Shown here in pieces: positions 20,966 to 59,580 of a DNA stretch of 64,000 nucleotides. Each line of letters starts with the position of its first letter. Position 1 is the stretch's first letter. The translations under genes were made by a program, and so were the position numbers. The DNA comes from Antedon mediterranea (lineage: Eukaryota; Echinodermata; Crinoidea; Comatulida; Antedonidae), in the NCBI RefSeq assembly GCF_964355755.1, contig NC_092673.1, forward strand, positions 28,153,001 through 28,217,000, given 5' to 3'. Below the pieces are notes generated by a model. The model saw only the letters and a program-made list of their open reading frames with translations. It had not been told where the DNA came from and made no database searches.

Positions 20966-23011
<2,046 letters not shown>

Positions 23012-23339
23012 GGTCGATTTGGATTCACCACCACCGGAAAAGAACGTTTCCCAGAAGGCTCCATCACATTTTCCGAACTAATTTGAAAGAGCTTCATCCA
23101 TTGGCTAGCACAAAATATTCTAGTACGACAGAACAAATCAAAAGTGCTAACTTATACGTGGTCGGGACTACACATAAAATTCTTCCACATTTCACAATGC
23201 GTCAATGCTCGTTTGAAACGCGTTACACTTTTATTACTTCAACAAGGGCCAACATTAATACAATACAAGTTAAATTAGACTAGGCCTAGGCTAGGCCCTT
23301 ACTTTCTTTTTTGCTTTTTAGAGTGTTAAAATTAATAAA
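23012..23339. promoter_or_regulatory. Shared bidirectional promoter, RPS18 / VPS52
   Basis: Only 328 bp separate the two start codons. On the RPS18 side there is a 5'TOP tract (CTTTTCC, minus, 23042-23036). On the VPS52 side a splice-acceptor-like TTGCTTTTTAG lies just before its ATG, suggesting a 5' UTR intron or a short leader. Human RPS18 and VPS52 have the same head-to-head arrangement. Confidence 0.75.
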
Positions 23340-31275: not shown

Positions 31276-31287
31276 TGAACACGCCCC

Positions 31288-31423
31288 TTAAGCTCTGTCT
31301 ACACTATCAAACTGTATGTGACAAAAATAATGACAACACTACCATTTTTTTAAGCATATCACTACCATATATGGGCACATCACACTTTTTTGTCACACGT
31401 GTGATAGTGTAGACAGAGCTTTA
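31288..31423. mobile_element. MITE, TCTACACTATCAAAC family, in the VPS52 3' UTR
   Basis: Complete copy starting 13 bp after the VPS52 stop codon, so almost certainly transcribed in the 3' UTR. Its inverted arms could fold in the mRNA. Confidence 0.85.
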
Positions 31424-32834
31424 TCACTAATTCACATTCCAACGGGTAGAAGGTAAAAACTCGAATTTTGTAAAGTGAAATTGTTGGGCTTTGTGGGTTG
31501 AATTCCTGATGGCTACTTTATACTATGTCACTAGATAGTTAAGCCGTTTTTTATCGTTGTGCGGTGGTTTCACGAAATACACTGATACACAATGCTTTAT
31601 TACCTGGGATTTTGAAAGTCTATACACAAGCCTCACCCTTCAAGACACTAATGACTCCATCCATTCAAAATGCATGCAAACTCTTAAATTTAAACGAAAT
31701 TATATCTTACCAAATTAAATGAACAGTTCTGATTGGTTGTGCAAGACCAGAAATTGAATGAATGTACTGTACATACCCATAAACTGACATTATTCAAATT
31801 ACCTGCGAGTAAACTTCACCATGTCCATTCAGTTTATACAACCAATCGCCACCACCATACTAAGTTGTATATGTCTACATTTCTTTGGTAAACATTACCA
31901 TTGTATTGTAAAATTATGGTATAAATGTGCTAATATTATGTATAATTATGTATTTATTGTTATATACAGGTATTTCAATTCTATTGCATACAGTAAATAA
32001 AATCCCAGAATAGTGAATGTTATGTTATTATTTTTTATTAGTTTTTATGACATTGTTTATACATTTTTACTAGGCCTAAATACATTTTTACTTGCTATCC
32101 CTTTCACATCGCCTTGTACACACCAGGGAATCCACTGCCAAGCAATGAGAACAAAATCTGTTAATATGGCTCTACATTCCCTCCTGCCCCAATAAAGTTG
32201 CAGCGTAACATTTATCATTTAAAATATACAGTATGCAGATACCAGTTGCAGGCCTAACAATTTTTAGTTTTGTTACTCAAGCCTGAAACGATAAAAAATT
32301 CAATCAAATCTAGGGATTATTTGTTTGTAATTCATCAATATTTCAATTGGAATTAAAGTAATGCATAAATGAGTTTTCTATAACACCCACTTTTTATTAT
32401 CGTCTGTTTGGGCAACATAACACTTTGTTAGCATTTTATGAACAAGTGATCATTTTTGACTAGGACAACAGAGGAGGGCACTTCGAACACATAAATACAT
32501 TATTAACTTTTCCAAAACCTGGAGATGGAAACTGAACACAAATTACTGTTTTAGGAATACGAAGTCATATAAAAATGTTAAAGTAAAGGTATAATATATA
32601 TTTAATACTGTATGTTCATCAAGATCCCCCCCCCCCCCACCACCATCATTTGTCAATTTTCTTTGCCTTATATATATTTAAATAACTGTATACACATTGT
32701 TTTTTCAACTGCATACAAATAATGGTGTCAAAATTAACACCTAAATCTATAATACTGCTAAACCCAAACAATAATCTTTTGTCTGTAATTACTCAACTGC
32801 AAAAATATTTTGTGCTATTATTGATATTATTTTG
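31424..32834. other. Convergent 3' region between VPS52 and FOXRED1
   Basis: Holds the two 3' UTRs. Several AATAAA hexamers are present (for example near 31997), plus a poly-C run at about 32628-32638. No additional gene was seen. Confidence 0.6.
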
Positions 32835-35800
32835 TCATATTACATTTTTTTCTATTAACGGTGTACCATCCCATAGTCTGTCAAAGCCCATTTTAGTTAA
32901 ATCTATGGAAACCGTGCAGCCATTTATTATAAGTTCTGTAACCGCTTGACCAACGGCCGGAGACTGTTGGATGCCATGACCGCTAAACCCTGTTGCTACC
33001 ACCAAATTCGGGTAAGCTGGGTGATAACCAATAATACCATTTTGGTCAAAAGTGTTGTAATCATAATATCCCGCCCAAGCATTTTTAATCTGTGAAAAAG
33101 AATGAAGATTCCATGTTTAATTAACTTTATTTTCTGTGAAACCCTACAAAGCATTCATACTATAGTATAGTACTAGTTGTAAACTTAAAGATGTATTGTC
33201 CCCCAAAAACATGAACATTTGAAGATTAATTTTAAATAAGACTTTGCATAGGGGATTTTGTAGAAAAAAAAATAATGCTTGCACTTATTATATGGTTAAA
33301 TTCAACCAAGATCCCATTGGCTGGCAGCAAATTTTACTATTTTTTGCTTTAAATTACATTTTTTTCGGGGAAATAGACTTTTTTTTCAATCCAATTTTTG
33401 GTCAAAGTGGATGATTTGATTGCATATTAAACAACAAAATTATTTCTTTCAGGGGGACAATACATCATTAAGCATGAATTTAGACTGTCAAATATATTTA
33501 ACATTCATCAAATACAAATGAAAAGTATACTTACTTTAAGACATTCAAATGCTTTAACCCGATTGGCCAGATTTGGCCAAATCTGGTCGTTAAACCATTC
33601 ATAATCAACTGACAAGTCTTCACAGCTAGGCTCCTGGTCCTGTTGTTAATATAAAAAAGACTATTAAGCATTGTGCATGTGTTAATTTTGTAAAGGCCTT
33701 TCAGGAAAACCAGAAGTTTTGGACCATCCTGAGACTTGGTTCCCACGACGTGGGTGCAACACAAAAATGATCCATGGCGATTATTCACATTACTGAATAT
33801 CACCTATGTTATATATGCAATTCATTCATTACAGTTTATACATTTACCATACTTATTCGAATATATGCCCGGGGGAATTTACTGTTCAGGAGGGTTCTTA
33901 TGGGGGGGGGGGGGCGTTTTCTCGAGGTAGGCATTCATTGGGAGGGAGGTGTTTATTTTTTTGGGTGTAAATAAATAAAGGCTCTGTGGCGTTTAATCAA
34001 AATGATGTTCTATGGGGAAGAGGGAGGGGGCGTTTATTCGGTGGTGGTGTTTATTTGAATAATACGGTATTTATCGTTAGATTATGACAGAACATTACCT
34101 CTGGAGGACTTTTTCCCGCTATATACATTCCTCCGAATCCTTCCCGTCGGAAATAAGATCCATCCGGCATTATAACAAATGGACAATCTAAAGTAGGGCC
34201 CTCTGGAGCATGGCACACATAGACATAGCGTTTTCGTGGTTCCACTGGGATCATTAAATCCAATAAACCATCTGCAGGGCCGCATCCGATGTCCGCCAAC
34301 ATTCCAACTTCTTTTGAGGTAGGACCAGCGGCCATGACAACATATGAACAATTTACAACATTTGTTTCTGGACTGTTTAACATTCGAACCTACAAAAAAG
34401 TCACAGTTCAAAATAAAATGGACAGCCCATTCTTGGTACGGTATCTATTTCCGAAGTATCATAGAAATATTTGGTAATACAACATCACATGTATCTAGTA
34501 TTAGCCAAACCCTTAACCTAACATGATACAGGCAGTACATGTGATATAAATGAGATTCTGTATTACCAAATATTCCTTTGATTCTTCGGAAATAGTATGT
34601 GGAGATACAGCACTAGGAATCGGGTGAGATGGGAAGAAGTTGTTCACAAAAAATAGTAATATGTATTAATTACACTCACCTTGACGCCAGTGATCCTACG
34701 ACCGCATCCTCCATATGCCATACTTTCATTTGGCTTCACCTCACTATACTGAAACCCGCTGACCTCACCGTCTACGTATTTAGCTCCAAGGGAAATAGCT
34801 TTTTTACGAAAGGCGGACAGCAATGACCACGGATCAAACCAACCTTCATTCTCATAACCTAGAACAAAAATTATCAAATTCACTTTACATTTTACTTTCC
34901 TAAGCTCTGTCTACACTATCAAACTTTATGACAAAAAAATGTGATGGGCCTATATGGACATGATGATGTCATATCACTACCATATTTGACCATATCACAC
35001 TTTTTTTGTAAAATTAGTTCAATAGTGCAGACAGGTTAATACTTTTTAGTTTTCCTTATTTTTTATACTGGGTGACCTCTCTCTCCCATTTATGATCAGT
35101 AGCTGTTAGTGACATACCATATGAGGCAAGCGCTATATCATCTGTGTTCATCCATGGGTGCCTTTCCTTAAGCATTGTTGGTGATAACAACTCAACTTTT
35201 GCTCCTAATTCCCTGAAATATACAAATAAATTTCACACAATCAATTTATAATAATATAATACTGTACTAGCAAAAGTTCAAGAAGTATACTTCATGTATC
35301 AGACAGAAAATCTCATCAAAAGCTCTGTCTACACTATCAAGCTTTATGCGACAAAAAAATGTGATGTGCCCATATATTTTATTTCATACTAGACAGAGCT
35401 TTAGTCCATAATACTAATACTAATTTAATTTCATTTTTTTATTATTTTGTACACAAAAGTAAGAAACTTGCTAAATATAGGATGAATAAACTAAAATTTA
35501 CCGGTCATATAAACTAATAAAGTCTCATTTGAGGCTTAGGGGATGGTGTAGAAAGAGGCATGAACTTTGACACCCTTTCATGAGAAACGTAGTACAGGGA
35601 GAAAGTATCCTTTTCAGACCTCAAAATTTGGAGAGAGAAAAACGAAATATCACAAGGTTTTATGAAACCATGTAAAACTCTAGGGTGCTATGATACTATG
35701 TCGAGAAAGGTTGAAAATGCATTATTTCACATAATAATGAATAAATTTATCAAAAACGTTATGGACCAATATTAGTAGGTGTTTTCTACTCTCAAATTAT

Positions 35801-37692
35801 TAATTATACATTATAAGGGTATTTTATTTGTATATTTTATATTACCGTATATATTACTAAAAATCTTGAGAAATTGTATTTTAGAGAAAGAGCGAGAGAT
35901 GACACAAATAATCATGACAGTTGATAGTCTGCCTTTGTAATTTGAATACTTTACTTGCTGACCTTTGTATTTTGTGATTTTCCTGCAGGATATGTGCCCC
36001 TCGTTCCGTGGCAAGAAACAAGTAGCCATGCTCATTGAACTGAACGTCTGGTGGGTCTTCATCCGCCACACACAAATTCTCTTTAATATTATGTAAGAAC
36101 TCAGCACTATACATTGACATCTGTATGTTCTCTGCATTTGAAAACTGTTGACGTATGCCACCAGCTGCCAGTGTGCTTGCACACCTAGTGTACTAAAACA
36201 AATGAGTAAACTCTGTCTACACTATCAAAATGTGATGTGCCCATATATGGACATGATGATGTCATATCACTACCGTATTTGGTTATATCACTACCATATT
36301 TGGGCACATCATTTTGTCAAACTATTTTGATATTGTAGACATTCATACTACTGTACTAGCAAGTATACCTTCCCCAGAGTGTGATTAAAGAAATTCAAGA
36401 GTTTTGAGATTTTACCTTGACCTTTAACGACCTAACAAATGCAAGATCGTCCAAGTTTGAAGACTAGTCTCTGAATAAAGCCGGACAGATACGCAGAGAT
36501 TTAGTGAATTATAGCATTTATAAACATTTTGTAGAAAAGTTTTCTGGATTATTAAAGATCTTTTAACTTGATTTGATGCAAAAAAAGGTTATGAGTTACT
36601 CTTGGACAAGTTTTATTAAAGTAAGTCTGACCTTTATCTCAATACAAATTAAATTGACAAAAACTACTGTACTTGTGAAGCGGAAAGAAGCTATTGTATA
36701 AAAGAAGTCAATATTTAGAAATCAAGGCCCCTTGTGGTTAATCAATGCAGACTGTTTATTGTGCAAGACAAGGAGAGTGGTAGGTAGAGAAATTAAATAC
36801 AATCTTTTGTTACCTCCGAGAAGTTAAAAGGTAGATCAGTTTTGTGCGAGTTTCTTTATTTGTTAGTTAAATTCTGTCTACACTATCAAACGTTATGTGA
36901 CAACAAAAATGCGATGTGCCCACATGTTATAGGACATGATAACACATCATTACAATATTTGGGCATATCACTACCATATTTGGGCACATCACATTTTGTT
37001 GACACATAAAGTTTAATAGTGTAGACAGCTGAGCTTTAGAAGGATTACTCAAAAAGTTTTTGCCAGATTTTCATAAGATTTTAAAGAATGGTTTCATACC
37101 TCTCTATAATATAGTCTATAGACTTGATTAGAATATTGAACAGATGGTAAATAAAATATTAAAGATGTATTAACCCTAAAAAAACATGAAAAATGAAGGT
37201 TAAAGAAATCAGACTTTGAATAGGCCATTTTGCATTATTCACTTCTTTTTCGATCCAATTTTTTTATCAAACTATTATTATGTGACATTAATAAATGGCA
37301 TATTAAAAAAAAACTTGAAAACAATAGATTTAATCGTTACAAAAAAAAAGTTCCTGCAATAAATTTAAATATTTAAATAAAAATACACAAACCTGTGAAT
37401 CTTTCTCAACAACCAGAACAGACATGTTATAATTGTGTTTCTTTAAAAAGTATGCTATGCTAGAACCCATCACCGCACCACCGATAACCACAACGTCCAC
37501 ATCAGGGGGAGGTCGATTGTTATGCGGCGAGTCAGTGTTCAGACTCCTCGTCCTTGTTAGGCCTAGGCCTAGACAATTACGGTGCCTAGAACCGATAAAA
37601 GAACCGGATACATGTTTACGCAAACTTATGCTTATCGTTTGTTCTACTGCAGCATTACCAAATAGTCTTGGAAATAGCCGAATAGTGGCCAT
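32835..37692 (-). CDS. FOXRED1: FOXRED1-like mitochondrial FAD-dependent oxidoreductase
   Basis: Seven exons, read 37692-37393, 36192-35963, 35212-35118, 34858-34680, 34389-34099, 33639-33535 and 33089-32835, give 484 residues; human FOXRED1 is 486. Residues 1-60 are rich in Arg/Ser with almost no acid, fitting a mitochondrial presequence. A Rossmann FAD motif follows (VVVIGGAVMG, about 67-76). Family blocks are CASTLAAGGIRQQFS, NEGWFDPWSLL, PVEPRKRYVYV, FRREGFGGMYIAGKSP, WAGYYDYNTFDQNG and VATGFSGHGIQQSP. FOXRED1 is a DAO-family flavoprotein needed for assembly or stability of respiratory complex I. The first glycine motif is GGAVMG rather than GxGxxG. Part of the presequence (LGLGL) is encoded by an AGGCCT-type tract at 37559-37572. 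EIF3G diverges from the 5' end. Confidence 0.97.
33186..33473. mobile_element. MITE with TTAAAGATGTATTGTCCCCC ends
   Basis: The left AAAGATGTATTGTCCCCCAA and right GGGGGACAATACATCATTA are inverted repeats. About 285 bp in FOXRED1 intron 6. A diverged relative begins near 37162. Confidence 0.8.
33846..34072. mobile_element. G-rich inverted-repeat element
   Basis: The ends TACCATACTTATTCGAATAT and TTGAATAATACGGTA are inverted copies. Between them are G-rich tracts (a pure G run at about 33902-33913) and repeats of GGCGTTTATTC, in FOXRED1 intron 5. Confidence 0.6.
34901..35037. mobile_element. MITE, TCTACACTATCAAAC family
   Basis: Copy in FOXRED1 intron 3; the right end is diverged (CAATAGTGCAGACAGG). 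Confidence 0.8.
35319..35403. mobile_element. MITE, TCTACACTATCAAAC family, internally deleted
   Basis: Keeps the left half (AAGCTCTGTCTACACTATCA to GATGTGCCCATATAT) and the last bases CTAGACAGAGCTTTA; most of the right arm is gone. It is in FOXRED1 intron 2. Confidence 0.75.
35510..35610 (-). mobile_element. SINE fragment
   Basis: Shares AAAGTCTCATTTGAGGCTTA with the SINE fragment near 29245, in FOXRED1 intron 2. Confidence 0.5.
36207..36340. mobile_element. MITE, TCTACACTATCAAAC family
   Basis: Copy beginning about 15 bp upstream of the splice acceptor of FOXRED1 exon 2, so it forms part of the acceptor region of intron 1. Confidence 0.8.
36867..37038. mobile_element. MITE, TCTACACTATCAAAC family
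   Basis: Longer copy in FOXRED1 intron 1, with duplicated ATCACTACCATATTTGGGCA-type units. Confidence 0.8.
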
Positions 37693-38471
37693 TGAAATAA
37701 ATTAACAACCAACAACAGTGCACAGTTGTTCAATTATCACGACTGGTCCATACTGGATTTGTTTTTATATAAAAACATAGTAAACAAAAAAAACAGTAAA
37801 CAAACTTCCCTCGTATGATATGATAATCATCTCGACCAGGGAGTTGCATCGACCATGTGGCAACCTCTTCTTCTTGAAGGACGGACAGACCTAGCCTAGG
37901 CCTAGTTCGTACCATAAGTACGATTTTTAATACGGGTACCCTTTTTGCGAAGGCGAACCCGACACACAAAATGAAAGTTGACTAAAAGAAAATATAATTA
38001 TGAATTTTGCCTACTTGCAAATATTATTATTGGATCCATTACTATTATTATTAGTTTCCACATTTTTACAGATTCATGTAAGCCGCGCACATGTGGTGGT
38101 TGCGCAATCAATCAACGCAAAAGTAGTACGAATCGAATTATTTTACTGTATTATAGAGGGCAGCAGTAAAAAAAATGAAATTAAAAACCGAAGTTGGACG
38201 GATAAATTGCGTTCACACTTAAGGTTACTGACGCAATTGTAACGCGCTACGACATTAGGGAGAATGATTAGGGAGGAAGAAAAGAAGGATCGGGTTCGGA
38301 AGATATAGTAGTGTGAGCGAGCCGCATGGTTTTTTCTTTAGCGATTATATTGTTCATATGGTAGGCTTAAACGTAAGTAAATTACAAAATCCATTTACTA
38401 ATATGTACACCTTATATGCTTAATAAAGGATTTGTGTAATGACCGAAATATTTTTACTTGCTTAGATAAAA
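37693..38471. promoter_or_regulatory. Divergent promoter region, FOXRED1 / EIF3G
   Basis: 779 bp between the two start codons. An upstream EIF3G leader exon is likely, because a donor-like AAACGTAAGT (about 38368-38377) is followed by an acceptor TTGCTTAG (38458-38465) seven bases before the ATG. A CTAGGCCTAG tract lies near 37885-37905. No TATA box was identified. Confidence 0.6.
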
Positions 38472-47752: not shown

Positions 47753-48248
47753 ACAAATTGTTATGTAACACAGTGTAAAGGCTAATTTACAGACAAGCGG
47801 AAACCATTTACACAGAGCGTGTAATTTGTCTACAGTGTGCTACATACACATGCTGTACAGCTTTTATACATACATTGGTCAGTTAGTCCTATCTCATGGA
47901 AAAGGGTTTCTGCAAACATTTTGAGAATGTTTGCCACGTAACGTCGACTGATCACGTTTGAAAACAAACTTCCCGTGTGTTTTGTATTTGTTGTCGATCG
48001 AACAAGGCTGACTCAATTTTTCAACTCGTGAAAAATTCTCAAATCACTAGGAATGGAAGAATTATATAGATCTAGCAATACAGTACTGCAATTCTCGCTT
48101 GAACTCCTTGTGGTTGACCAGATAAAAGTGACACTTCTAAACAAGAGCAACACAAAAATATTACAAACTACAATCAAAATACAGTCTCTTTTTTACATTT
48201 TTTATTTCAAAATTGACAAATTCAACAGTGGCGCCACGTGAAGGCTTC

Positions 48249-48302
48249 AACATGGCCCCGGGGCTGGGAGTGACAAAAAGGCATTGCCTAAGAGTGCTTG
48301 TC
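48249..48302. repeat. GC-rich conserved block, copy A
   Basis: TTCAACATGGCCCCGGGGCT then GGGAG, GGCATTGCC and AGAGTGCTTGT. Paired with copy B at 49561-49618. Self-complementary ends suggest a structured RNA, but I cannot assign a class. Confidence 0.55.
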
Positions 48303-48988
48303 GGCTGTTTTATTTCAATGCGTCAGGAATAGCATGGAAAAAGGGAATAAACAATGCAAATGGAATGCTGGTGCTTGTATCTTGAACGTGGGGTGGGTGG
48401 CGCCAACATTATGTAGGCCTCTATATGTCACATTGGTGCAGGTTTATTTATGCATTAGGCTTGCAGTATTATTCTACTACATTACAAGCTATCATATGTG
48501 TTTTCATATTTATACAAGGAAGGTTCTTGTTTTCATATTTATTTGAATATACAACACTGCGGATAATATATCTGGAGTAGCCATCCCCACAACACAAACA
48601 GCAGCTTTCTACGAGTCTGTAAAATAAAATAAAAATATTAACTTCTCGTTATTTTATGGTTTTATATATAGTAGTAGTATTCTAAGACATCAGAACTAAG
48701 CGTTCTCTTCAACAAATTTCAGCGAGAGAGTTAAATGTTCTCATCAAATGTCTTTCTGCAACAGAACAAGCATTTCGGATATAACAATTTGATCTACACT
48801 AAATTTACTAATTAATTAAACCACTGTTAAAATAGAATAAAAGATATAGAAAATACTTGCCACCACAATTTCTTTTTTTTTAAGTCCTGGAAATAAACAT
48901 GGTTTTTAAGCTCTGGAAAGAAAATGGATAAGATTATTTAATAATATATTTTATCGATCTACGTTATCAATCAAATCTGGTCTGCTTT

Positions 48989-49040
48989 AAGAGTTGATTG
49001 ACCTCAGTGAACGGAATGTTGCTATCATCGAATTACTCTT
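48989..49040 (-). ncRNA. Possible box C/D snoRNA
   Basis: On the minus strand AAGAGT / ACTCTT ends enclose GATGATA and CTGA. The CTGA is nine bases from the closing stem and there is only one box pair, so this is weak. It lies in the last recognised host intron. Confidence 0.3.
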
Positions 49041-49255
49041 GATGGCAGAATTAGTTTTGCATCATTGGTCAAAGGGCAAACGCATCAATGCAAGTTATTA
49101 CCTTAAACAATGCAGGTGAACAGCCAACAGTATCGTACACCTATCTGAAAAAAATCCAAATACAATATTACTGAATTGTTTTTATTTACATCACAAACCA
49201 TACAATGAGCTAAAAGGATAAGTTATTCTCAATCCTAATAAAGAAATCTATTTGA

Positions 49256-49340
49256 CTTGTGTCTGCATCAGTCCACTACTTAAAATCTTCATTTATAATT
49301 CAGTGAGATTCCTCACATAGTCATCATTTGAAGACACAAA
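49256..49340 (-). ncRNA. Box C/D snoRNA
   Basis: Terminal stem TTGTGTCT / AGACACAAG, box C ATGATGA, D' CTGA, C' ATGAAG-like, box D CTGA. The sequence before D (AGTAGTGGA) resembles a guide in vertebrate U75, and that before D' (GGAATCTCA) one in U79, by memory only. Confidence 0.85.
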
Positions 49341-49560
49341 TCATTATCAACACATAAATTAAATGGCAACTCCAGGTTAAAAAAGTTATAAACATTGGCA
49401 ACAAGGATAATAACCCTGGTTTTTTTTTATTGCTAAAGTAAGCCCCTTTTTAAAAAGAAGTGCTGCTACAGAACTTCTTTCAAAATGTTGGTGCAAAGGT
49501 TACTAACTGTGGAAATAAATTATAAGCTGATTGTAAGCTGATTTAGCTTTGGATGAAGGG

Positions 49561-49618
49561 TTCAACATGGCCCCGGGGCTGGGAGGCATAGGGCATTGCC
49601 AAAGAGTGCTTGTTGGAA
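49561..49618. repeat. GC-rich conserved block, copy B
   Basis: TTCAACATGGCCCCGGGGCT, GGGAGGCATAGGGCATTGCC and GTGCTTGTTGGAA. TTCAACA / TGTTGGAA can close a hairpin. It lies in a host intron next to another hairpin (49715-49779). Confidence 0.55.
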
Positions 49619-49652
49619 TAAAACAGGACTGAATTGCATCAAAATTGAAATC

Positions 49653-49779
49653 ACGGTGGTCGAAATGATACATTGATTTCGAACGATGGATTAATGATTA
49701 TAGAAAATGACTATGCTGAAGGCTGTTCATGTGATCCCATACAAGATTGATGTTGTAAAAGATGGACTGCTCTTTCAGC
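49653..49779. ncRNA. Possible two-hairpin RNA (H/ACA-like)
   Basis: Two hairpins, TCGAAAT / ATTTCGA and GCTGAA / TTCAGC, are separated by a ~25-base A-rich hinge containing AGAAAA on the plus strand. The strand is unclear and the terminal ACA is poor. Confidence 0.3.
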
Positions 49780-50075
49780 AATATAATAAAGTAACTATGA
49801 CTCATGCATTCTGGAATCAGCTGGCCAGATGTAAACAAGAAAAAGGCAGAGTGAATGGCAGAGTATGAAATGAAAGAATGAGGCAGTTAATACCGGACAA
49901 GTTTGTACGTCAGCTGACAGAAAAGCTGTCTATTGCTGGTCAGATCGGAGCGGGACTGTTCTCAGTGTCGTTCCGGTGCAATCGAGAGCTTTTCTATCGT
50001 ACCAATAAATGCTTGTTCATCTGAAACAAAAAAAGAATGCTTGGTACAGATTGTGTTGAAATGTTTCAGATACAC

Positions 50076-50176
50076 GTGTCTACACTATCAAACCAGTTTT
50101 GACATGCCCAAATATGGTAGTGATATGCCCAAATATGGTAGTGATATGACATCATCGTGTCCATATATGGGCACAT
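50076..50176. mobile_element. MITE, TCTACACTATCAAAC family, right end lost
   Basis: GTGTCTACACTATCAAACCA then two CCAAATATGGTAGTGATATG units and TGGGCACATCACAT; truncated. Confidence 0.75.
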
Positions 50177-50536
50177 CACATAGTGATTCACCTCAGGTTG
50201 CAAGATACATGTAATCATTCCTTTCATCTGGATCACTCAGATTGTTCATCATTGGTGAGTTTACAAGAAACTACATTGACCTATTACCTTAATGGAGATA
50301 AGCATGTATACTAACCTGGCTCAAAGATGGTGGTTACACCGTGCCAACCAATAACATCACAAATCTGTAAAACATGTGGATGTTTTGTCAATATCAATTA
50401 ATTATGTAAATTTGGTACTACTGGAAATATTATCAATACAAAAGGAAACCGAACAAGCTAGCTAAATGCAGATTACTTCTACCAACTTACATTTTGTAAG
50501 CATAGATTTACATAGACAGGAACAAAAGAAAAACAA

Positions 50537-50616
50537 CTTTTCATCTCAGATTCAGAAGAGAAATCATAAGATATCATTTAGTGGATCACTCTGATACAAA
50601 ATCATCATCGATGCAA
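50537..50616 (-). ncRNA. Box C/D snoRNA
   Basis: Minus strand: TTGCATC, box C GATGATGA, C' AATGATA, a guide-like TGATTTCTCTTCTGAAT, box D CTGA, then GATGAAAA closing the stem (CATC/GATG). One per intron. Confidence 0.75.
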
Positions 50617-50753
50617 TTAACATAACTGATTAAAGTTAGTTTACTTACATGGTAACAATTAGTTTCTAAACCAACATGTAGATATATTCAGTATCTAGTC
50701 AATCTGAAAAAATAATTTTGTTAATTATACAGGTTATTAATATTGTATTGGCC

Positions 50754-50878
50754 TAAAGCTCTGTCTAGACTATCAAACCAGTTTGAAAAAAAAGTGCGAT
50801 GTGCCCAAATAGGGTAATGATATGCCCAAATATGGGAGCTGGTGATATGACATTATCATGTCCATACATGGGCACAAC
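50754..50878. mobile_element. MITE, TCTACACTATCAAAC family, right end lost
   Basis: TAAAGCTCTGTCTAGACTAT to CATACATGGGCACA; the right terminal repeat is missing. Immediately next to the snoRNA at 50883. Confidence 0.75.
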
Positions 50879-50882
50879 AGCA

Positions 50883-50960
50883 AGTACCTGCTCAGACTAA
50901 GTAAAGATGGTCACATATAAAATCCCTAGCAGCGATTCTTGAGTCATCATAACAGGTATA
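50883..50960 (-). ncRNA. Box C/D snoRNA
   Basis: Stem TACCTG / CAGGTA, box C TATGATGA, box D CTGA after CATCTTTACTTAGT. Single copy in its host intron. Confidence 0.85.
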
Positions 50961-51180
50961 TTCTATAGGCAATTGTAGAATGAACATTTCATTGTTTAAA
51001 GGCCTATTGTTTCACCACTAGGAATACTTTATCTTAGGCGTGGAAATCTTAAATCAATATTTAAAACGTACCTTTATGGATAGCTCAGTCGTACCAATTT
51101 CCCATTGTTCTGTAGAGAAATGAAAAATCCTTCATTTTCTTTGTTTAAATTGTTAAAAAATCTATTTTTTTTAATGGTTT

Positions 51181-51259
51181 GATTTGCCTCCGAGATCTTG
51201 GTGGTAGGGTACTATCACACAACAGTCAAAAGTAGCAATGTTTTCTTCCTCGGCATATC
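51181..51259 (-). ncRNA. U24/U76-like snoRNA with divergent boxes, copy 2
   Basis: A strong closing stem GATATGCC / GGCAAATC flanks AGGAAGA (box C position) and CGGA (box D position). CCTACCACCAAGATC before the D position is complementary to the 28S rRNA segment GATCTTGGTGGTAG, and TTGCTACT to AGTAGCAA next to it, the double target of vertebrate U24/U76. A paralog is at 53564-53642. Confidence 0.75.
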
Positions 51260-51286
51260 TTTGTAAAAATGATCACAACACACCTT

Positions 51287-51464
51287 TAAGGCCAAGTTAC
51301 ACAGACGAGCAGCGTACCTTGCCCCACAGAGAATGTGCATCTAACCCGAGCATAAACCGCCTATCCAGTCTGCGTTGTGTGTAAATGATTATAAGGAATA
51401 ACAGATTCTATTTTAGTATTACGGTTAACGCTTATCTGTGTAAATTGGCCTTTGTATGATAAAG
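51287..51464. mobile_element. MITE with AAGGCCAA ends
   Basis: AAGGCCAAGTTACACAGACG and CTTATCTGTGTAAATTGGCC are imperfect inverted repeats; about 178 bp in a host intron. Confidence 0.7.
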
Positions 51465-51637
51465 GTAATCAGTGCTTAACTAGGACATTGTGATAACATA
51501 GTTTGATTCGTTATTCTAGAATGTGCTTTACCTTATATGGTATATATTGGACACCAGCCGTTTCTGCTAAAATAAGAAATAATACAGATTAATAAAATAT
51601 GAAAAGAACGTTTTTCTATGGATCAGCTGAATACAGA

Positions 51638-51721
51638 TTTGCCACATCAGGTCTACTACTATTGGTTGTTATAATCATTGTAAATCGTTTGTCCCTATCT
51701 AGTGTCATCATTTATGGCAAA
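51638..51721 (-). ncRNA. Box C/D snoRNA
   Basis: Stem TTTGCCATA / TGTGGCAAA, box C AATGATGA, C' AATGATT, box D CTGA. Single copy in its host intron; target unknown. Confidence 0.85.
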
Positions 51722-52122
51722 ATCTAATGATCTTTAAAGAAATTTCTGTAACTATCCTGCTGTAGAAGCAGTGTGAAACAGCATCTCTTTCAACAATCAA
51801 CATATTTTGGAAGGAAAAGGGTCCTATTGAAACGAGATTATTTACTTACCAAATTGTGGCAGTATCCAAATTTGCACTTGGTGAAACTATCCCCCGTCGG
51901 ACACCATCTCGATGTTTCTAGAATAATAATTTTCATATTCAGGAAATAATTTCGCCAGTGTAGCATAGCAAAAAGATATACAAAACAAACTTATTGCTAC
52001 ACATTTCTAAAATTGTGTAGAAAAAAATACAATACAAAATTATGTTTCTCAACTCAAAAATCAGTTTGATTAGCAATATTGATAAACAAAATTTTTCCAT
52101 GATATGCTATTGATAAAATGAA

Positions 52123-52203
52123 TTTGCATCAGATCGCCCTAGTTGAAGTCGTGGGTCAGTCACTGTCCATCAGACAATTTAGTCTTCAATCATCACTTGC
52201 AAA
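52123..52203 (-). ncRNA. Box C/D snoRNA, copy 2
   Basis: Stem TTTGCA / TGCAAA, box C GTGATGA, D' CTGA, C' GTGACTGA-like, box D CTGA preceded by TTCAACTAGGGCGAT. Virtually identical to 53818-53898. I do not recognise its target. Confidence 0.92.
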
Positions 52204-52912
52204 TTATAATATTAATTTATTGCATCCTTACCCATTATCAAAAGACAATCTTGAGAAAGCAGACTTGTTGCCACGAAGCAGTGCCACCAAAAATGTATGC
52301 AAAATTCCGCCATCAGATACAACCAGCAAGTTGCGTTTAGGTTCATAATTTTTCCTCAAACTTCACGCAATGACAGACAGCAATTTTCATTTCACTATGA
52401 AAAAATTTCCAAAAACAAATTGAATCAAAAAATAGTCAGCAATACTTACACAGATACATATAATCAAACATATATAATTTTCAGTTGCATCAGTCCTATC
52501 GATCCAAAGTTAGTTTAATCATGTTACTCATGACTTTCTGATGTCATCATTTGCAACAATATAATCTTTAAAAATAAATTAAAATAATAATTAAAATAAA
52601 TTATTCTTACCACTTGGTGCGATTGCAATGTCCGTCTTACTCCTTAGTGAGACTTCCTGAAATTTATATAAAACCGAAACAATTCAACTATGTCATTCAA
52701 CAGGAACAAAATGCTTACAAAAATACAGAACATAGTTTATAGGCATATATATTCATTAGAAGGGGAGAAATAGGCTGTGCATATAATCAACAAATCTAGT
52801 TCATCCCAACTACATGCTATTTATTTCATGGGAATAGCTAACTGCAAGAAATTTGTGAGTAACTAATCAAATACATCTTTTTGTTAGATTAATTACAAAA
52901 TGAAGGAAATAA

Positions 52913-53053
52913 AATTGTGTCGAACCGGGTGCCTGAAAAGCAGCGGAAATCTGCTATCAGCGAATATGGAAAGACTAGGGTTTAATGTCCGAGACTTTAA
53001 GCACCGGTCGTTTCATGTACGTTCGTATCAACGACAGTGACTCTAGAATCGGT
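52913..53053 (-). ncRNA. H/ACA box snoRNA, copy 2
   Basis: 5' hairpin (CCGA / TCGG lower stem, GTCGTT / AACGAC upper stem), H box ACATTA, 3' hairpin (CTGA..AGCAG / CTGCT..TCAG) and a terminal ACA (GACACAA). Paralog at 53260-53400 with compatible changes. Confidence 0.85.
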
Positions 53054-53259
53054 AAAGTTTTAAGTGTATGTCAATGTATTTAACTTACTTATTTTAAGTG
53101 CATGAATTGTTGCTGTGCATGTTCCAACACATTTAATGTAGGCATCATCTAATAATGAAACGGTGCATTTTAACAAAAAGTTTATGAGAAACCGACAATA
53201 AATCTTTTAAATGAAGATTATGTACGTTCAAAACATTCAATCCAGATATATTTAGTACA

Positions 53260-53400
53260 AATTGTGTCGAACCGGGTGCCTGAAAAGCAGCGGATATCTG
53301 CCATCAGCGAATATGGAAAGACTGAGGTTTATTGTCCGAGACTTTAAGCACCGGTCGTTTCATGTACGTATGTATCAACGACAGTGACTCTAGAATCGGG
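53260..53400 (-). ncRNA. H/ACA box snoRNA, copy 1
   Basis: Same architecture as 52913-53053. The H box reads ACAATA, still fitting ANANNA, and the 3' hairpin keeps GCAG / CTGC. A 60-base exon (53148-53089) separates the two copies. Confidence 0.85.
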
Positions 53401-53563
53401 ACACAACATATATACCAGAAAAAACACAAAAATATCCATTTTACTTACATACTTCCTTCATAGAACATCCATTCTGCAATTTAGTAAACCTACAAAAATT
53501 TAGATTTCAAAAGCTTAATTTTTATTTTTAAATGACATTTTTACTAAATACATTTTATTTATT

Positions 53564-53642
53564 GATTTGCCTCCGAGATCTTGGTGGTAGGGTACTATCA
53601 TACGACAGTCAAAAGTAGCAATGTTTTCTTCCTCGACAAATC
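53564..53642 (-). ncRNA. U24/U76-like snoRNA with divergent boxes, copy 1
   Basis: Same boxes (AGGAAGA, CGGA) and 28S guides as 51181-51259. The closing stem is GATTTGTC / GGCAAATC, with changes relative to copy 2 that keep or restore pairing. Confidence 0.75.
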
Positions 53643-53817
53643 TTTGTAAAAATTAAAAATTGTCAAAAAAGTAAAAGCTTGCATACAAAACTAGAACATT
53701 TACCTCATTTCAATGGCCATATCATGCTACAACATCTCAAGTCCTACAAAATAAAAAAAATAATTATAAACACAATGACAAATTTAAAATGTAAAGCAAC
53801 TATCAACTTTCAATTTT

Positions 53818-53898
53818 TTTGCATCAGATCGCCCTAGTTGAAGTCGTGGGTCAGTCACTGTCCATCAGACAATTTAGTCTTCAATCATCACTTGCAAA
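53818..53898 (-). ncRNA. Box C/D snoRNA, copy 1
   Basis: Near-identical to 52123-52203, including all boxes and the TTTGCA / TGCAAA stem, in the intron between exons 54086-54045 and 53743-53704. Confidence 0.92.
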
Positions 53899-54663
53899 AA
53901 ATTAAACTTGAGTGGCACGCCTAATCGGTGATAGAAGCTATTGGAATCTTTTGCCACTCCTTGGCGCAATCTAGCTATTTTGTCTTGTTTTGTATTAATG
54001 TGTTTTGGCAAAATAAATGAAATGATAAACAAAATATAACTTACTTTTCTTCTCAATAATATCTTGCCAAGTATCATATTTAGTGCCTAAAAAATGAAAT
54101 AAAATAATTAACAAGAAATATTTCTTACAAAAAACGCCGCGTAACTTTTTGACTGGACAGTTGTTGTAAGAACAGTCTTCATTAATCTAATATAATAGGT
54201 CGGCCAATCAAAACGCAAGTGAACAATTGGGACTTTACTTGTGATTTATGTCATTGGCCTGTCAGCACAGTCGTTTCTTTCTACTGTAGAATTAAACGCA
54301 CAAATTTGTATTGGGAATAATGTATGTGGTTATTACTATCGCATTTAGGTATTGATAATAATAATAATATGGCTTTTGAATATATAATTACTGTCTGTAG
54401 AATAACATTTATACATTTTCGGTTCGCGATGAAAAGTTATATGAATGGATTTGTAATAGGTATTTATAATAATAGTATATGGGTTGTATTATTGCTAAGC
54501 TATCACCAAATCGCGTTATAACATTATTTCTCAGGGTTTTTTGCACCATTGATCAATACCAAACGCGTATCGGTATTATAGTTTTTAATGAATCATTACA
54601 TTAATAAAAATACCCAATTAAATCAATCGCGTCAGTCCAATTCCGACTTATGTTTCGATCACA

Positions 54664-54796
54664 TAGTTCTGTGTCTACACTGTCCCAACTAGTTTAACAA
54701 AAAAAGTGTGATGTGCCCAAATATGGTAGTGATATGCCCGATTATCGTAGTGATATGACATCATATTTAGTTTGATAGTATAGACAGAGCTTAAGG
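54664..54796. mobile_element. MITE, TCTACACTATCAAAC family
   Basis: TTCTGTGTCTACACTGTCCC to TAGTTTGATAGTATAGACAG; complete but diverged, in the long host intron. Confidence 0.75.
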
Positions 54797-54823
54797 ATTA
54801 TATTTAAAAAATGTTTTCTTACA

Positions 54824-55048
54824 TTTTGAACGGAAGTATTTATTTGTTTATAAGCCCAATTTTCCAGTCTTAATTTTACATTTTTAAAAAAAGTATTTAT
54901 TTGTTTATAAGCCCAATTTTCCAGTCTTAATTTTACATTTTGAAAAAAAAAAGGATTTTATTTGTTGATAAGCCCAATTGTGCAGTTTTATTTTACATTT
55001 TAAACGAAAGTATTTATTTGTTGATAAGCCGAATTTTCCAGTTTAATA
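54824..55048. repeat. Tandem repeat, ~63 bp unit, four copies
   Basis: AAGTATTTATTTGTTTATAA, GCCCAATTTTCCAGTCTTAA and TTTTACATTTT repeat four times. Further copies occur at 55240-55260, 55598-55690 and 55861-55915. The block GACCCCTTCCACAGTG to TTTACGCCTCT is also duplicated (55060-55125 and 55688-55745). Confidence 0.85.
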
Positions 55049-55973
55049 ATAATGACCCCTTCCACAGTGCTTATACCATATACATTTTACATGATATTGA
55101 CCGTGGGTTCTTTACGCCTCTGATGCATTTGTTTTTATTGTACCTTTTTAATAAATTATTATATGTTTAGGCCTAATCAAACCCAATTTAATGAAACGGT
55201 CAGATTCCGATTTCAATTGAACGAAAGTAGTACTGTATTTATTATTCATTGATAAGCCAAGGGTCCCATGGCGTTAGCCGATATCTTGAGCATTTGACTC
55301 TTGTGTCAACCTGTAACACAAATCATTCTTCAAAATCTAAAGAAAGAACCTCACACGTCTTTTTTGTGAGTGATACACTATGGATATGCCCACGGAAATA
55401 ATATGTGGACATTGCAAACAATCATAGGCCTACAGTAACAAACATAACATGGCTAATAAGCATAACATTCAGACTTGTTTGTTTTCTAGTGGATTTTTAT
55501 TTACTTTAGCATGTAGAATAAAACTAGTAACAGTGGCTATATTAATAATTATACTGATTATCCTTGAGATGTTATCGCGTCTAATAATAAAATATTTTGT
55601 TGCTGATAAGCCCAATTTTTCAGCCTTGATTTTACATTTTGAACGAAAGTATTTATTTGTTGATAAGCCCAATTTTGCAGTCTTAATAATGACCCTTCCA
55701 CAGTGCATTTTACATGATATTGACCGAGGGTTTTTACGCCTCTATAGCCACTGATCAATACCATAATAATGTACTTTTTTAAATGAATATTGAAATGTTT
55801 CAACATACCCAATTAAAAAAAAAACGGTCCGTTTTCGAGTTCAATCTTTTGATTAGAGAGGTTGGAGTTTCATTTTGAACGAAAGTATTTATTTGATTGA
55901 TAAGCCAAATTTCTAGTCCTAATGATTTGAGATTCAACGGGTTTTGCTTTCAATTGTATAATAATATAATGAT

Positions 55974-55998
55974 ATATATATATATATATATATATAAA
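55974..55998. repeat. (TA)n microsatellite
   Basis: About twelve TA units in the long host intron. Confidence 0.9.
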
Positions 55999-56217
55999 TA
56001 TAATATTAAGTATAATTATGAATTCACCAACACTTTCAGGCCCGGGGCCGAGTTTGTGTAGACCAGACTTCCATGCACAGCCACATGTTAAGGAATATGA
56101 ATCTCTTTATGATTTTAATATGGTTCGAAATGATATTACACAACAACGATTAGACAGCAACTGTGCAAGAGTCCAACTAATAAAATCGGAATGATCAATT
56201 AATTGAACATTTACAGC

Positions 56218-56584
56218 ATAAGGCCCATACACTAGGACGATAACGATCAACGATAAATAGACAAATGTGCATTTTTAATACATAAACCAAAAGAAATATA
56301 AACAATTCCTTTGATGAAAATTATATTTTCACACGTCCAATCAAATGACGTCATGATTAGTAAGACCAATAATATCGTGACAATACAGCGATTATATTGT
56401 TTTTATTTATCATGACGTCATTTGATTGGAATTTGAAAAACATTATTTTTATCAAAGACAGCATAAATGATTATCCTATAGGTCTAGAACGAAAACCTTT
56501 CTAATTTCTTTTGGTTTATGTAAAAAAAATGCATGCTATATATTTATCGTCCGTCGTTATCGTCATAGTGTAATTGGGCCTTTA
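56218..56584. mobile_element. MITE with AAGGCCCA..ACGATAACG ends
   Basis: Left ATAAGGCCCATACACTAGGA then CGATAACGATCAACGATA; right TATCGTCCGTCGTTATCGTC then ATAGTGTAATTGGGCCTTTAT. Inverted termini of about 40 bp. A fragment lies in an RPS18 intron (21692-21738). Confidence 0.85.
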
Positions 56585-57029
56585 TACAAAAAAAATAAAT
56601 TGATTACGAAGTTACATGTCATTTTTACCTATCACCAAAAAACTAACCTTTTCAAAACTAATTAATTGTTACGAAGCCAATTTATATTATATATTTCATT
56701 AAAACTGAACTTTACGGTAAATGAAGATTAAGTATCAGTTAATATGAATAATATAACTAGTAGGTCTATGAACTTGAGTCCAGACACAGATCTGTGACAT
56801 TACTATCATAAATGTTGAAACCACTTATAAAACCTTTTTTTTAAAGAAAATACAATTGTGTTAGGAGAAGGCTAATAAACAAATAGATAATGTACAAACC
56901 TTTTTCTGGATTAATTAATGGAGCAGGCGTTCCTAATAATCTGCTGCTGCTAGACTGATTGTTCACCTTCTGAATAATTGATTGGACCCCCCACGGCATC
57001 TGATAACCAACAAAAAATTTACGAGGACT

Positions 57030-57470
57030 GTTTCAATGATTTAATATCTGACGGCGTATTATTATAACATTGGCCTAGATTGACAGTCAAAGAAAGTCAT
57101 TGTAAATACCTTCCTTTATGTTGACAGAGCCAAAATAAAGTTTTGACCATTATAGAATGATTATTTGACAGTGACTTATTATAATACCAGCCTGGTTGAC
57201 AGCAAAAACGAAGTTATTATTTATTGATCAAGATTTTACAGATTTCCGTCTACATCTCAATAATACTGTATTATCAGCAAAGGCTTTCATATAGACTCTC
57301 TTCTCCCAGACGTTTTTTGGGTCCAGCAGCTACCTATAAATTATAGTCGAGTTTCCAAATTCACAAAACTGTCAGCCTTAGATACTAAAGCTACCGCTAT
57401 GAAACAGCTTATTAATGAATGTGTCCTCCTGGGACATAGCTGGCTAGAGCCGCGGCGCGAAAATCAAATG
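57030..57470. repeat. Dispersed repeat, related to 45492-45870
   Basis: Shares ACCTATAAATTATAGTCGAG, the GACTCTCTTCTCCCAGACG block and the AATGAATGTGTC..CGTGTGAC-like end with the copy inside the 4 kb element. It lies in a host intron just before the snoRNA at 57510. Confidence 0.65.
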
Positions 57471-57509
57471 TTTCACTGCAAACCTACCCTGTAATATTGT
57501 TTGGCATTT

Positions 57510-57589
57510 GTGTTGCTCAGATAGGGGCGAAATCCTATGGCAAGATCGTCATGGTATTCAGCTGAACTATGCGAGCATCATAGCAACAC
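57510..57589 (-). ncRNA. U77/U80-like box C/D snoRNA, copy 2
   Basis: Stem GTGTTGC / GCAACAC, box C ATGATGC, D' CTGA, C' ATGACGA, box D CTGA. Guides: GCATAGTTCA before D' (28S TGAACTATGC) and TTTCGCCCCTAT before D (28S ATAGGGGCGAAA). Both match known guides of vertebrate U77/U80. Confidence 0.92.
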
Positions 57590-58071
57590 GTATTACAAAA
57601 TAATTACACAAGTTATGTCATGCTTTAAATTTAATAAAAATTGTGTATATGGTATAATCAGAGATGTACCATCAGGTGAAACAAGGGCTTAAATGTCATG
57701 TCTGATCGAGACAAGTTAGTTTTAATTGTAAAATTCTTTGTAAAGTAATGACCCCATTTATTATATCACAGCTTTTTTAAAGAATGATAACATTTAAACA
57801 TTCAATTCACAGTTTGCTCACAATGTTTTTAAGGAATTTTCTCAAGAAAAAACTATAAATTTAACGTAGAAAAATACTATTTTCAGCAAATGAAGCTAAA
57901 TATCTTTACAGTATGTTGCAATACAATCAATAATAACTACTTACTGTAATCTGAACTTGCAACATTTTTTGTTTTTATTTGACAACACCAAACCTGAAAA
58001 CAATCAAATAAGCCACAATTATACAGCAAAATATTGACAACAGTAGAAACGAACCTGCATTTATTGAGCCA

Positions 58072-58212
58072 TAAGCTCTATCTACACTATCAAACTTTAT
58101 GCGACAAAAAAATGTGATGTGCCCGTATACTATGAACATGATGTCCTATCACTACCATATTTGGGCACATCACACGTTTTGTCAAACTACTTCGATAGTG
58201 TAGACAGAGCTT
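58072..58212. mobile_element. MITE, TCTACACTATCAAAC family
   Basis: Complete copy (TAAGCTCTATCTACACTATC / GATAGTGTAGACAGAGCTT) in the host intron that also holds the snoRNA at 58273. Confidence 0.85.
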
Positions 58213-58272
58213 CATATGCTATATTTATGTATTAAATGAAGTATAGCCTTGGGATTGCAATAAACAATTTAA

Positions 58273-58352
58273 GTGTTGCTCAGATAGGGGCGAAATCCTA
58301 TGGCAAGATCGTCATGATAATCAGCTGAACTATGCGAGCATCATAGCAACAC
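58273..58352 (-). ncRNA. U77/U80-like box C/D snoRNA, copy 1
   Basis: Near-identical to 57510-57589 in stem, all four boxes and both 28S guides; the difference lies in the loop after D'. Confidence 0.92.
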
Positions 58353-58459
58353 TAAATCAATTTTTTTAATTAAAATTCTTTATATTACAAAAATTGAAAT
58401 TTACCTTATTTTTCAATTTCAATAACAAATTCAGTTCACAGATTAAAAGTCGCTCAATT

Positions 58460-59376
58460 CTAAAGAAATATATTAAATTTAGAAAATACCAATATTTGTT
58501 TGGGAATGATTATTGTAGTGTAGATTCTACAGATAATAATATGGTTTTCAGATAGAGCTAATAATATTTCCTTCATTTAATATCGGGTTTAAAAAAAATC
58601 ATCACAAAACCATACACTCGCTATAAACAAACATGGAAGACACATGTGATAATTATTACATACACAATCGATATTGGGCAATTAAATACCAAAACCTATT
58701 CAAGTAAATCACTGTATTTATGTATACTACAGACTTTCTACACTATAAGGGAAAGGTTAATTTGATACAGGGGTAGGGGGTGAAGTACAGCCGGAGTGAA
58801 ATGTATGTATTAATAGGGATAACGATGCAAAATTTAAAGTTGTTATTTTTCAACCAATTTAAACATTATATGTTAGTATTTTGTTTCAATATTCCAATAA
58901 AGAAAGAATTACGAAAATCTGACTTGTAGTTTTCGAAATATAGGGTCTAAAACATCGCCGAAAATGATCGTTTTTGGCCACGAACGTTGTAAACAAATTG
59001 CGCCCTCAGTCGACAATTGTATGAACCACACCGTTTTTCACTAAAATAATTACATATAATTACGTTTTATAGCAATTTATTTTATATATCAACATTGGAA
59101 ATATCAATAAAATATATTATTAAATGTTTACAAAATATATAAAGTTGTTTATTTAACGGAATTCGTACAAATTCATTGCTCTAAATTTGTGTAGTAACGA
59201 TCAGTACAGACCGACCATGTGACTTTGCAGTACACGCGAGAGAAAACATTCCGCTGTGGGTGATTCGCGTCCACCAATCAAATAGCCAGAATCCAAAATC
59301 ATTCAACCGTGAGCTCTGCCGATCGCGGGAAATCTCAGCTTTGATTGGCTTACGATGACATATCACAAAATGGTGG
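58460..59376. other. Region upstream of the first recognised host exon
   Basis: No exon was recognised. CCAATC (59274-59279) and GATTGGC (59343-59349) motifs around 59270-59350 look promoter-like but are not tied to a transcript. Confidence 0.4.
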
Positions 59377-59580
59377 TTTTGTAGTTGAGCCTCGCGTAAT
59401 TTTCACAATTTTATTTCAAAAATAGACCTTTATGGTATGTGTGATTTTGAATAATAAAGGCTTCATATCGAGAAAAAAACGTTTTTTAACACTTGTAATA
59501 AATATAAAAGCACATGGCATGTAGAACTATATTATCTTGGCGTAGGAATCCCAGGTCATGAGAGGCTCAACTACAAAAAC
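59377..59580. mobile_element. ~204 bp element with 18 bp inverted ends
   Basis: TTTTGTAGTTGAGCCTC and GAGGCTCAACTACAAAA are perfect inverted repeats. No coding capacity. Confidence 0.7.

Follow-up and report, generated by a model that had tools for sequence, protein, structure and literature searches.

A cluster of guide RNAs on the minus strand at 48.5-58.6 kb of a 64,000-nucleotide stretch from the feather star Antedon mediterranea (contig NC_092673.1, positions 28,153,001 to 28,217,000; hereafter the window) is in all likelihood a non-coding host gene of small nucleolar RNAs (snoRNAs) that is orthologous to vertebrate GAS5. Since the guides of this crinoid host cover nine of the ten ribosomal RNA (rRNA) sites of chicken GAS5, its origin probably lies no later than the common ancestor of echinoderms and vertebrates. 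The proposal builds on directly observed features, i.e., the geometry and strand of the RNAs, the pairing of guides with their targets, the single locus in the assembly and the overlap with the GAS5 sites, from which we infer that the gene is transcribed, spliced and processed into mature guides that direct methylation, and that it and vertebrate GAS5 derive from a single ancestral host. In the proposed mechanism, one minus-strand transcript would be spliced and its short exons thrown away, nearly every intron would release one guide RNA, and the box C/D RNAs would direct 2'-O-methylation of 28S, 18S and 5.8S rRNA. A pair of H/ACA-type RNAs presumably guides a pseudouridylation.

SnoRNA positions are thought to drift fast, and GAS5 has been studied mainly as a vertebrate long non-coding RNA. 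The shared guide set is unexpected, because snoRNA mobility is argued for in an earlier study (PMC3511168). No paper on GAS5 outside vertebrates was found in searches of the open-licence literature. If the orthology holds, the crinoid gene would be among the oldest traceable non-coding host genes, with a linkage among these guides maintained for more than 500 million years. Moreover, it would offer a direct test of the origin of single-guide vertebrate snoRNAs from double guides.

The guide RNA cluster and its host gene

The whole window was scanned loosely for a C box NTGATGN followed 45-114 nt downstream by CTGA and closed by a terminal stem 4 bp or longer. The minus strand yielded 17 matches, 13 of these within 48000-59400, and the plus strand six, none of them in this interval; above 59400 there was no match on either strand. 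One match (52436-52493) is spurious and overlaps another RNA, so that 12 of the 13 cluster matches remain. When the stem had to reach 5 bp or more, 11 matches were obtained in the cluster on the minus strand, none on its plus strand and none on either strand below 48000, compared to a mean of 0.11 and a maximum of three in 300 dinucleotide shuffles of the cluster. Rfam alignments and guides added three further C/D RNAs (49261-49335, 53568-53638 and 51185-51255). Altogether, the cluster holds 15 box C/D RNAs of 12 kinds, here designated a to o, and two H/ACA-type RNAs (H1, H2), all in a single orientation and in the 5' to 3' order U44, U80, U80, d, U24/U76, H1, H2, f, g, U74, U24/U76, j, k, l, U79+U75, U47, U81.

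Four of the RNAs are present as pairs (b/c, d/g, e/i and H1/H2). The C/D copies share 78/82, 81/82 and 77/81 bases, respectively (95-99%). Windows of 231-241 bases around these copies align at 66-67%, and the flanks alone, by subtraction, at only about 52-55%, a difference suggesting that selection has acted on the RNAs. When the 13 RNA kinds were used as queries against the 354-Mb assembly (E<=0.001), all 17 matches fell at this locus, a search that diverged copies could escape.

A splice-site scan and a model assembled by hand predict a host RNA of 17 exons with a median length of 49 nt on the minus strand (48530..58459). Its predicted exons lie at 58459-58405, 57993-57945, 56999-56900, 54086-54045, 53743-53704, 53489-53449, 53148-53089, 52656-52611, 52394-52232, 51917-51850, 51566-51532, 51109-51072, 50703-50649, 50364-50316, 49144-49102, 48912-48862 and 48616-48530, the terminal exon featuring an AATAAA at 48538..48543. 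Fifteen donors are GT. Exon 48912-48862 lacks a GT donor, and a GC one base downstream would fit instead. Exactly one RNA is found in 14 of the 16 modelled introns, two in one and none in another. An exon near 50020 is probably missing from the model in the two-RNA intron between 50316 and 49144. In 8 of the 17 RNAs, box D is located 74-96 nt upstream of the acceptor. The joined exons contain stops in all frames, with a longest stop-free run of 83 amino acids. A sequence-only reading of the same DNA had described very short minus-strand exons alternating with C/D and H/ACA RNAs of the same strand, about one per intron, at 48515..58459. Predicted exon layout and intron occupancy agree with that description, and the cluster is larger than first described, extending to 58614 at RNA a.

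RNA a is located 5' of the first modelled exon, and the model is provisional as to the 5' exon or exons, the promoter and the exact 3' end. A pyrimidine tract, TTTTCTCTC, near 59245 may represent a 5' terminal oligopyrimidine motif. Several introns contain repeats resembling miniature inverted-repeat transposable elements (about 58215-58075, 54790-54660, 50850-50760 and 50175-50090), with ends like GCTCTGTCTACACTATC and the inner motif ATTTGGGCACATCAC. In addition, a long inverted repeat at 56315-56450, with MIR6274 matches below threshold on either strand and one MIR8742 match, is probably a transposon end pair. A repeat of about 60 bases (CAAGCACTCTT.GGCAATGCC...AGCCCCGGGGCCATGTTGAA) occurs on either side of the gene's 3' portion, at about 49620-49560 and 48305-48245.

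Pairing of the guides with ribosomal RNA

As most Rfam scores lie below the cut-off, the guides were tested directly on rRNA. Own 18S, 5.8S and 28S sequences were taken from ribosomal DNA (rDNA) copies on C2, C3 and C8. None of the six rDNA stretches scanned with Rfam has an uninterrupted 28S, so the individual sites were taken from whichever copy retains them. The copies seen in the assembly (L015, L024-L026, L044, L045) are interrupted or damaged; the 28S of L015 stops near 7270 at GGGAGTAACTATGACT, known as the R2 insertion site. The guides were tested mostly on own rRNA, and the windows of the pairing test for U76 and U79 came from the 28S of a contaminant eukaryote (L002), whose eight paired bases are the same in own copies L015 (U76) and L025, L026 and L044 (U79). 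Another contaminant sequence, L001 from the viral collection, is a chimera of about 420 bases of eukaryotic 28S fused to an apparent RNA phage.

All nine GAS5 sites tested (U78 was examined separately) are covered by a run of at least eight Watson-Crick pairs. In 500 rounds, shuffled guides covered 0.40 of the nine sites on average and never more than three, and reversed guides covered one; positions under such a run amount to 5.7% of 4975 rRNA positions. At six of the GAS5 sites, an unbroken pairing of 10 to 12 bases spans the predicted methylated base. RNA a (58542..58614) carries a U44-type guide with 11 pairs at 18S A166 (chicken A165). RNA b (58272..58353) and its second copy c (57509..57590) represent U80/snR60 double guides for 28S G1612 and A1521, with 12 and 10 pairs. 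Likewise, 12 pairs each were found for the U74/snR64-type guide TAGATAGGGACA of RNA h (51643..51717) at 28S C3820 (chicken C3330), the U47-type guide CTAATTCTGCCA of RNA n (49000..49071) at 28S C3866 (chicken C3376) and the U81-type guide TTTAACTCTCTC of RNA o (48683..48755) at 28S A391 (chicken A413). The D' boxes of h (ACGA) and n are degenerate.

Two further kinds of RNA feature guides for two vertebrate positions each. RNA m (49261..49335) combines a U79 guide at D' with a U75 guide at D (AAGTAGTGG). RNAs e (53564..53644) and i (51181..51261) are U24+U76 double guides, with the U76 guide at D'. The D guide of e, CTACCACCAAGATCT, forms 15 Watson-Crick pairs on the contaminant 28S (L001, L002 and L004) and 10 on own copy L015, where one base in that stretch is changed. 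Both e and i have the boxes AGGAAGA (C) and CGGA (D), in which, according to Rfam alignment and sequence, the consensus uridines are replaced and the bases that form the sheared G-A pairs are retained. Such pairs serve in the kink-turn of C/D boxes. The sequence-only reading had named guides of the U24/U76 and U77/U80 families, and pairing at these 28S positions is present for both. The spacing of the sites equals that in chicken, i.e., 91 nt within U80, 12 between U24 and U76, 11 between U79 and U74 and 46 between U74 and U47.

The remaining C/D RNAs point to other positions. RNA d (53817..53898) and its second copy g (52122..52203) carry the guide AACTAGGGCG, which forms 10 Watson-Crick pairs with own 18S at position 1005 and would direct methylation of C1007, a site with no counterpart in the chicken table. 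RNA f (52484..52557) is predicted to guide an own 28S A within CCTATCGATCC by 11 D-anchored pairs on copy L045, the target being changed in copy L044; no vertebrate counterpart of this site is known. Two RNAs address 5.8S rRNA. The guide GAGTGATCCACTA of RNA k (50539..50615) forms 13 pairs, including one G-U, for position U14 of own 5.8S, the function of HBII-239, and RNA l (50186..50259) combines CTGAGTGATCCA (12 pairs) with ATGTATCTTGCAA (13 pairs), each with one G-U, for predicted A16 and C75 in own numbering. The target of RNA j (50886..50960) is uncertain, as AGAATCGCTGC forms 11 Watson-Crick pairs with own 28S but was not placed beside a D' box by the anchored scan. H1 (53263..53399) and its copy H2 (52911..53047), with a mean column identity of 94%, both contain an H box and a 3' ACA, the hinge of H1 being ACAATA. 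With the hinge held open, H1 folds into two hairpins at -33.1 kcal/mol, compared to -33.7 kcal/mol for an unconstrained fold of other shape (a difference of 0.6). The folding stability of both was not significantly above that of shuffles (z -1.4 and -1.2).

In a box-anchored scan, the assigned sites were obtained again for a, b, c, m, o, k, l, d/g and f. As box D was set one base off for e and i, their U24-type position came out shifted by one base. In the comparison with Rfam, RNAs b (52.0 bits) and c (50.2 bits) exceed the gathering score of 41 of RF00309 (U77/U80, snR60) and carry both guides of this family; they are the sole RNAs of the cluster above a gathering score. Up to an E value of 5, 34 sub-threshold matches are listed for the cluster. 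These include SNORD24 at two places, which covers the U24/U76 sites, and SNORD79, SNORD81 and SNORD47, which are members of chicken GAS5, as well as families foreign to GAS5 (SNORD125, SNORD113, SNORD115, SNORD50, SNORD100 and plant, worm and ciliate families). For SNORD24, SNORD79, SNORD81 and SNORD47, the claim is that of the same guide sites and not of Rfam membership.

Comparison with vertebrate GAS5 and other host genes

The chicken gas5-like host (CR387333) contains U74, U75, U76, U80 twice, U44, U78, U79, U47 and U81 in introns 1, 2, 3, 4/5, 7, 8, 9, 11 and 12, respectively; ten of the 86 methylated residues of its table are assigned to this host, and corresponding hosts are mentioned for Danio and Xenopus (PMC2653536). 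The nine sites covered in the crinoid are those of U44, U81, U80 (two), U76, U79, U74, U47 and U75. Eleven of the predicted sites have a counterpart in chicken, and nine of these are GAS5 residues (p 1.2e-9). Counted by family the overlap is 8/10 (p 1.0e-8), by RNA unit 7/8 (p 6.8e-8), and without the two weakest RNAs, m and n, it is 5/6 (p 2.5e-5), all of these probabilities being post hoc. Furthermore, U79, U47 and U81 are the last three in both genes and in the same order, which is reached by 0.5% of the permutations of seven families.

Like vertebrate GAS5, the predicted gene is a non-coding host of multiple snoRNAs with short exons and about one RNA per intron, and it shares the tandem U80 pair and the 3' terminal U79-U47-U81 with the chicken gene. 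In contrast to vertebrate GAS5, U75 and U79 guides are located on one RNA, as are those of U24 and U76, and the 5' order differs. Compared to chicken GAS5, no U78 was seen and there are extra guides for 5.8S (k, l), 18S C1007 (d/g), 28S (f) and the U24 position, in addition to the H/ACA-type pair. The predicted gene is also longer than human GAS5. The guides of e and i lie at the U24 and U76 positions, 12 nt apart, as in SNORD24 and yeast U24, but differ from these in the replaced box uridines and in a score under the Rfam cut-off. Architecture and presumed function are also those of the UHG genes, e.g., human SNHG1 and Drosophila Uhg1-Uhg8. Fly Uhg1 hosts 16 snoRNAs (PMC4430873).

Orthology, convergence and other explanations

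Several results weigh against orthology with GAS5. The probabilities of overlap were calculated after the guides had been assigned with GAS5 in mind. Three GAS5 sites have short pairings (U75 with nine, U76 and U79 with eight Watson-Crick pairs), and own rRNA copies differ, with a changed base in L024 at the U79 site and in L025 at the U75 site. The anchored scan misses h and n with their degenerate D' boxes and gives many other matches of at least eight pairs, e.g., 15 pairs of m with 18S near 1642; the guide assignments are therefore directed and not blind. A guide for U78 (28S G4593) was not found, own 28S copies being damaged there; nearest to it is RNA k, which as judged by eye pairs there over about 7 bp in the intact register, displaced by one base. 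The Rfam scores fall short of the gathering scores for SNORD24 (38.5 for i and 33.1 for e vs. 41), SNORD79 (33.9 for m vs. 47), SNORD81 (31.7 for o vs. 50) and SNORD47 (24.9 vs. 50 for n, which scores higher for SNORD115 at 26.6). SNORD44 is absent among the 25 Rfam matches listed for 58500-58660, so that RNA a has only the guide site in common with it. Outside the 3' end, the order differs from chicken; the longest common subsequence is four, which is equalled by 45% of permutations, or five (9% of permutations) with the second U76-type copy. Finally, the neighbours of human GAS5 (ZBTB37, DARS2 and RC3H1) were not among the 29 open reading frames (ORFs) scanned with Pfam (a selection of nine from the window and 20 from 100 kb of flanks). 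Microsynteny is not expected to persist over this distance.

The main rival of orthology is convergence, i.e., a UHG-type host that collected housekeeping snoRNAs independently of GAS5, so that two hosts each took up the same ancient guides. The differing RNA order would fit such a history, as would the guides outside chicken GAS5 (d/g, f, k, l, the U24 guide and the H/ACA-type pair). Likewise, the mobility of snoRNAs favors it: PMC3511168 cites a positional conservation of 14% between birds and mammals and, for 22 ancestral intron positions that bear snoRNAs, finds no homology. Nevertheless, nine of 11 comparable sites on one vertebrate host (p about 1e-9), the persistence of this overlap without the two weakest RNAs and the 3' terminal trio in GAS5 order render convergence unlikely. 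It is still more improbable that the RNAs do not belong to one non-coding host but have their own promoters, lie inside a coding gene or represent copies in partial decay. The non-canonical boxes of e and i, the small number of two RNAs above the gathering score and the host 5' end missing from the model could be explained in this way. The regular succession of donor, RNA and acceptor, with the box D spacing seen in 8 of the 17 RNAs, argues against it, as do the joined exons without a stop-free run above 83 amino acids, the exact pairing of most guides with own rRNA and the lack of further copies matched in the assembly.

The orthology with GAS5 thus remains the preferred explanation. The sequence-only reading had put forward a GAS5/UHG-like host with homology as an inference, which gains support from the nine of ten GAS5 sites, the last three functions in order and the single locus; its two named families fared differently in Rfam, with the U77/U80 pair above the gathering score but the U24/U76 pair below it. 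Its assumption of an echinoderm source was correct. Tentatively, a more far-reaching history may be considered, in which the GAS5 host of the deuterostome ancestor started from double-guide RNAs. The feather star would have retained U24+U76 and U79+U75 as single RNAs, and vertebrates would have split the halves into separate RNAs and introns by duplication and loss; e and i would be functional with uridine-replaced kink-turn boxes.

Genomic neighborhood

Within the window, Pfam matches identify a TRIM45-like gene, Vps52 and a gene with a DAO domain as neighbors of the host (18392-37701). The TRIM45-like protein is 100% identical to one of Antedon mediterranea and shares 70% identity with a TRIM45-like protein of Anneissia japonica and 42% with one of Patiria miniata, and the DAO-domain gene is presumably FOXRED1-like. 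Beyond the window (L027-L032), HSP70, MFS, HMG-CoA reductase, hamartin and FMO were found by Pfam. In human, VPS52, HSP70, TSC1, FMO and GAS5 are located on 6p, 9q and 1q, the major histocompatibility complex paralogon, to which this neighborhood may correspond. In addition, about 22 kb are open in one plus-strand frame across the adjacent stretches L036, L035 and L034:1-2445, with long ORFs on the opposite strand too, which represents either a giant repetitive protein or a tandem repeat.

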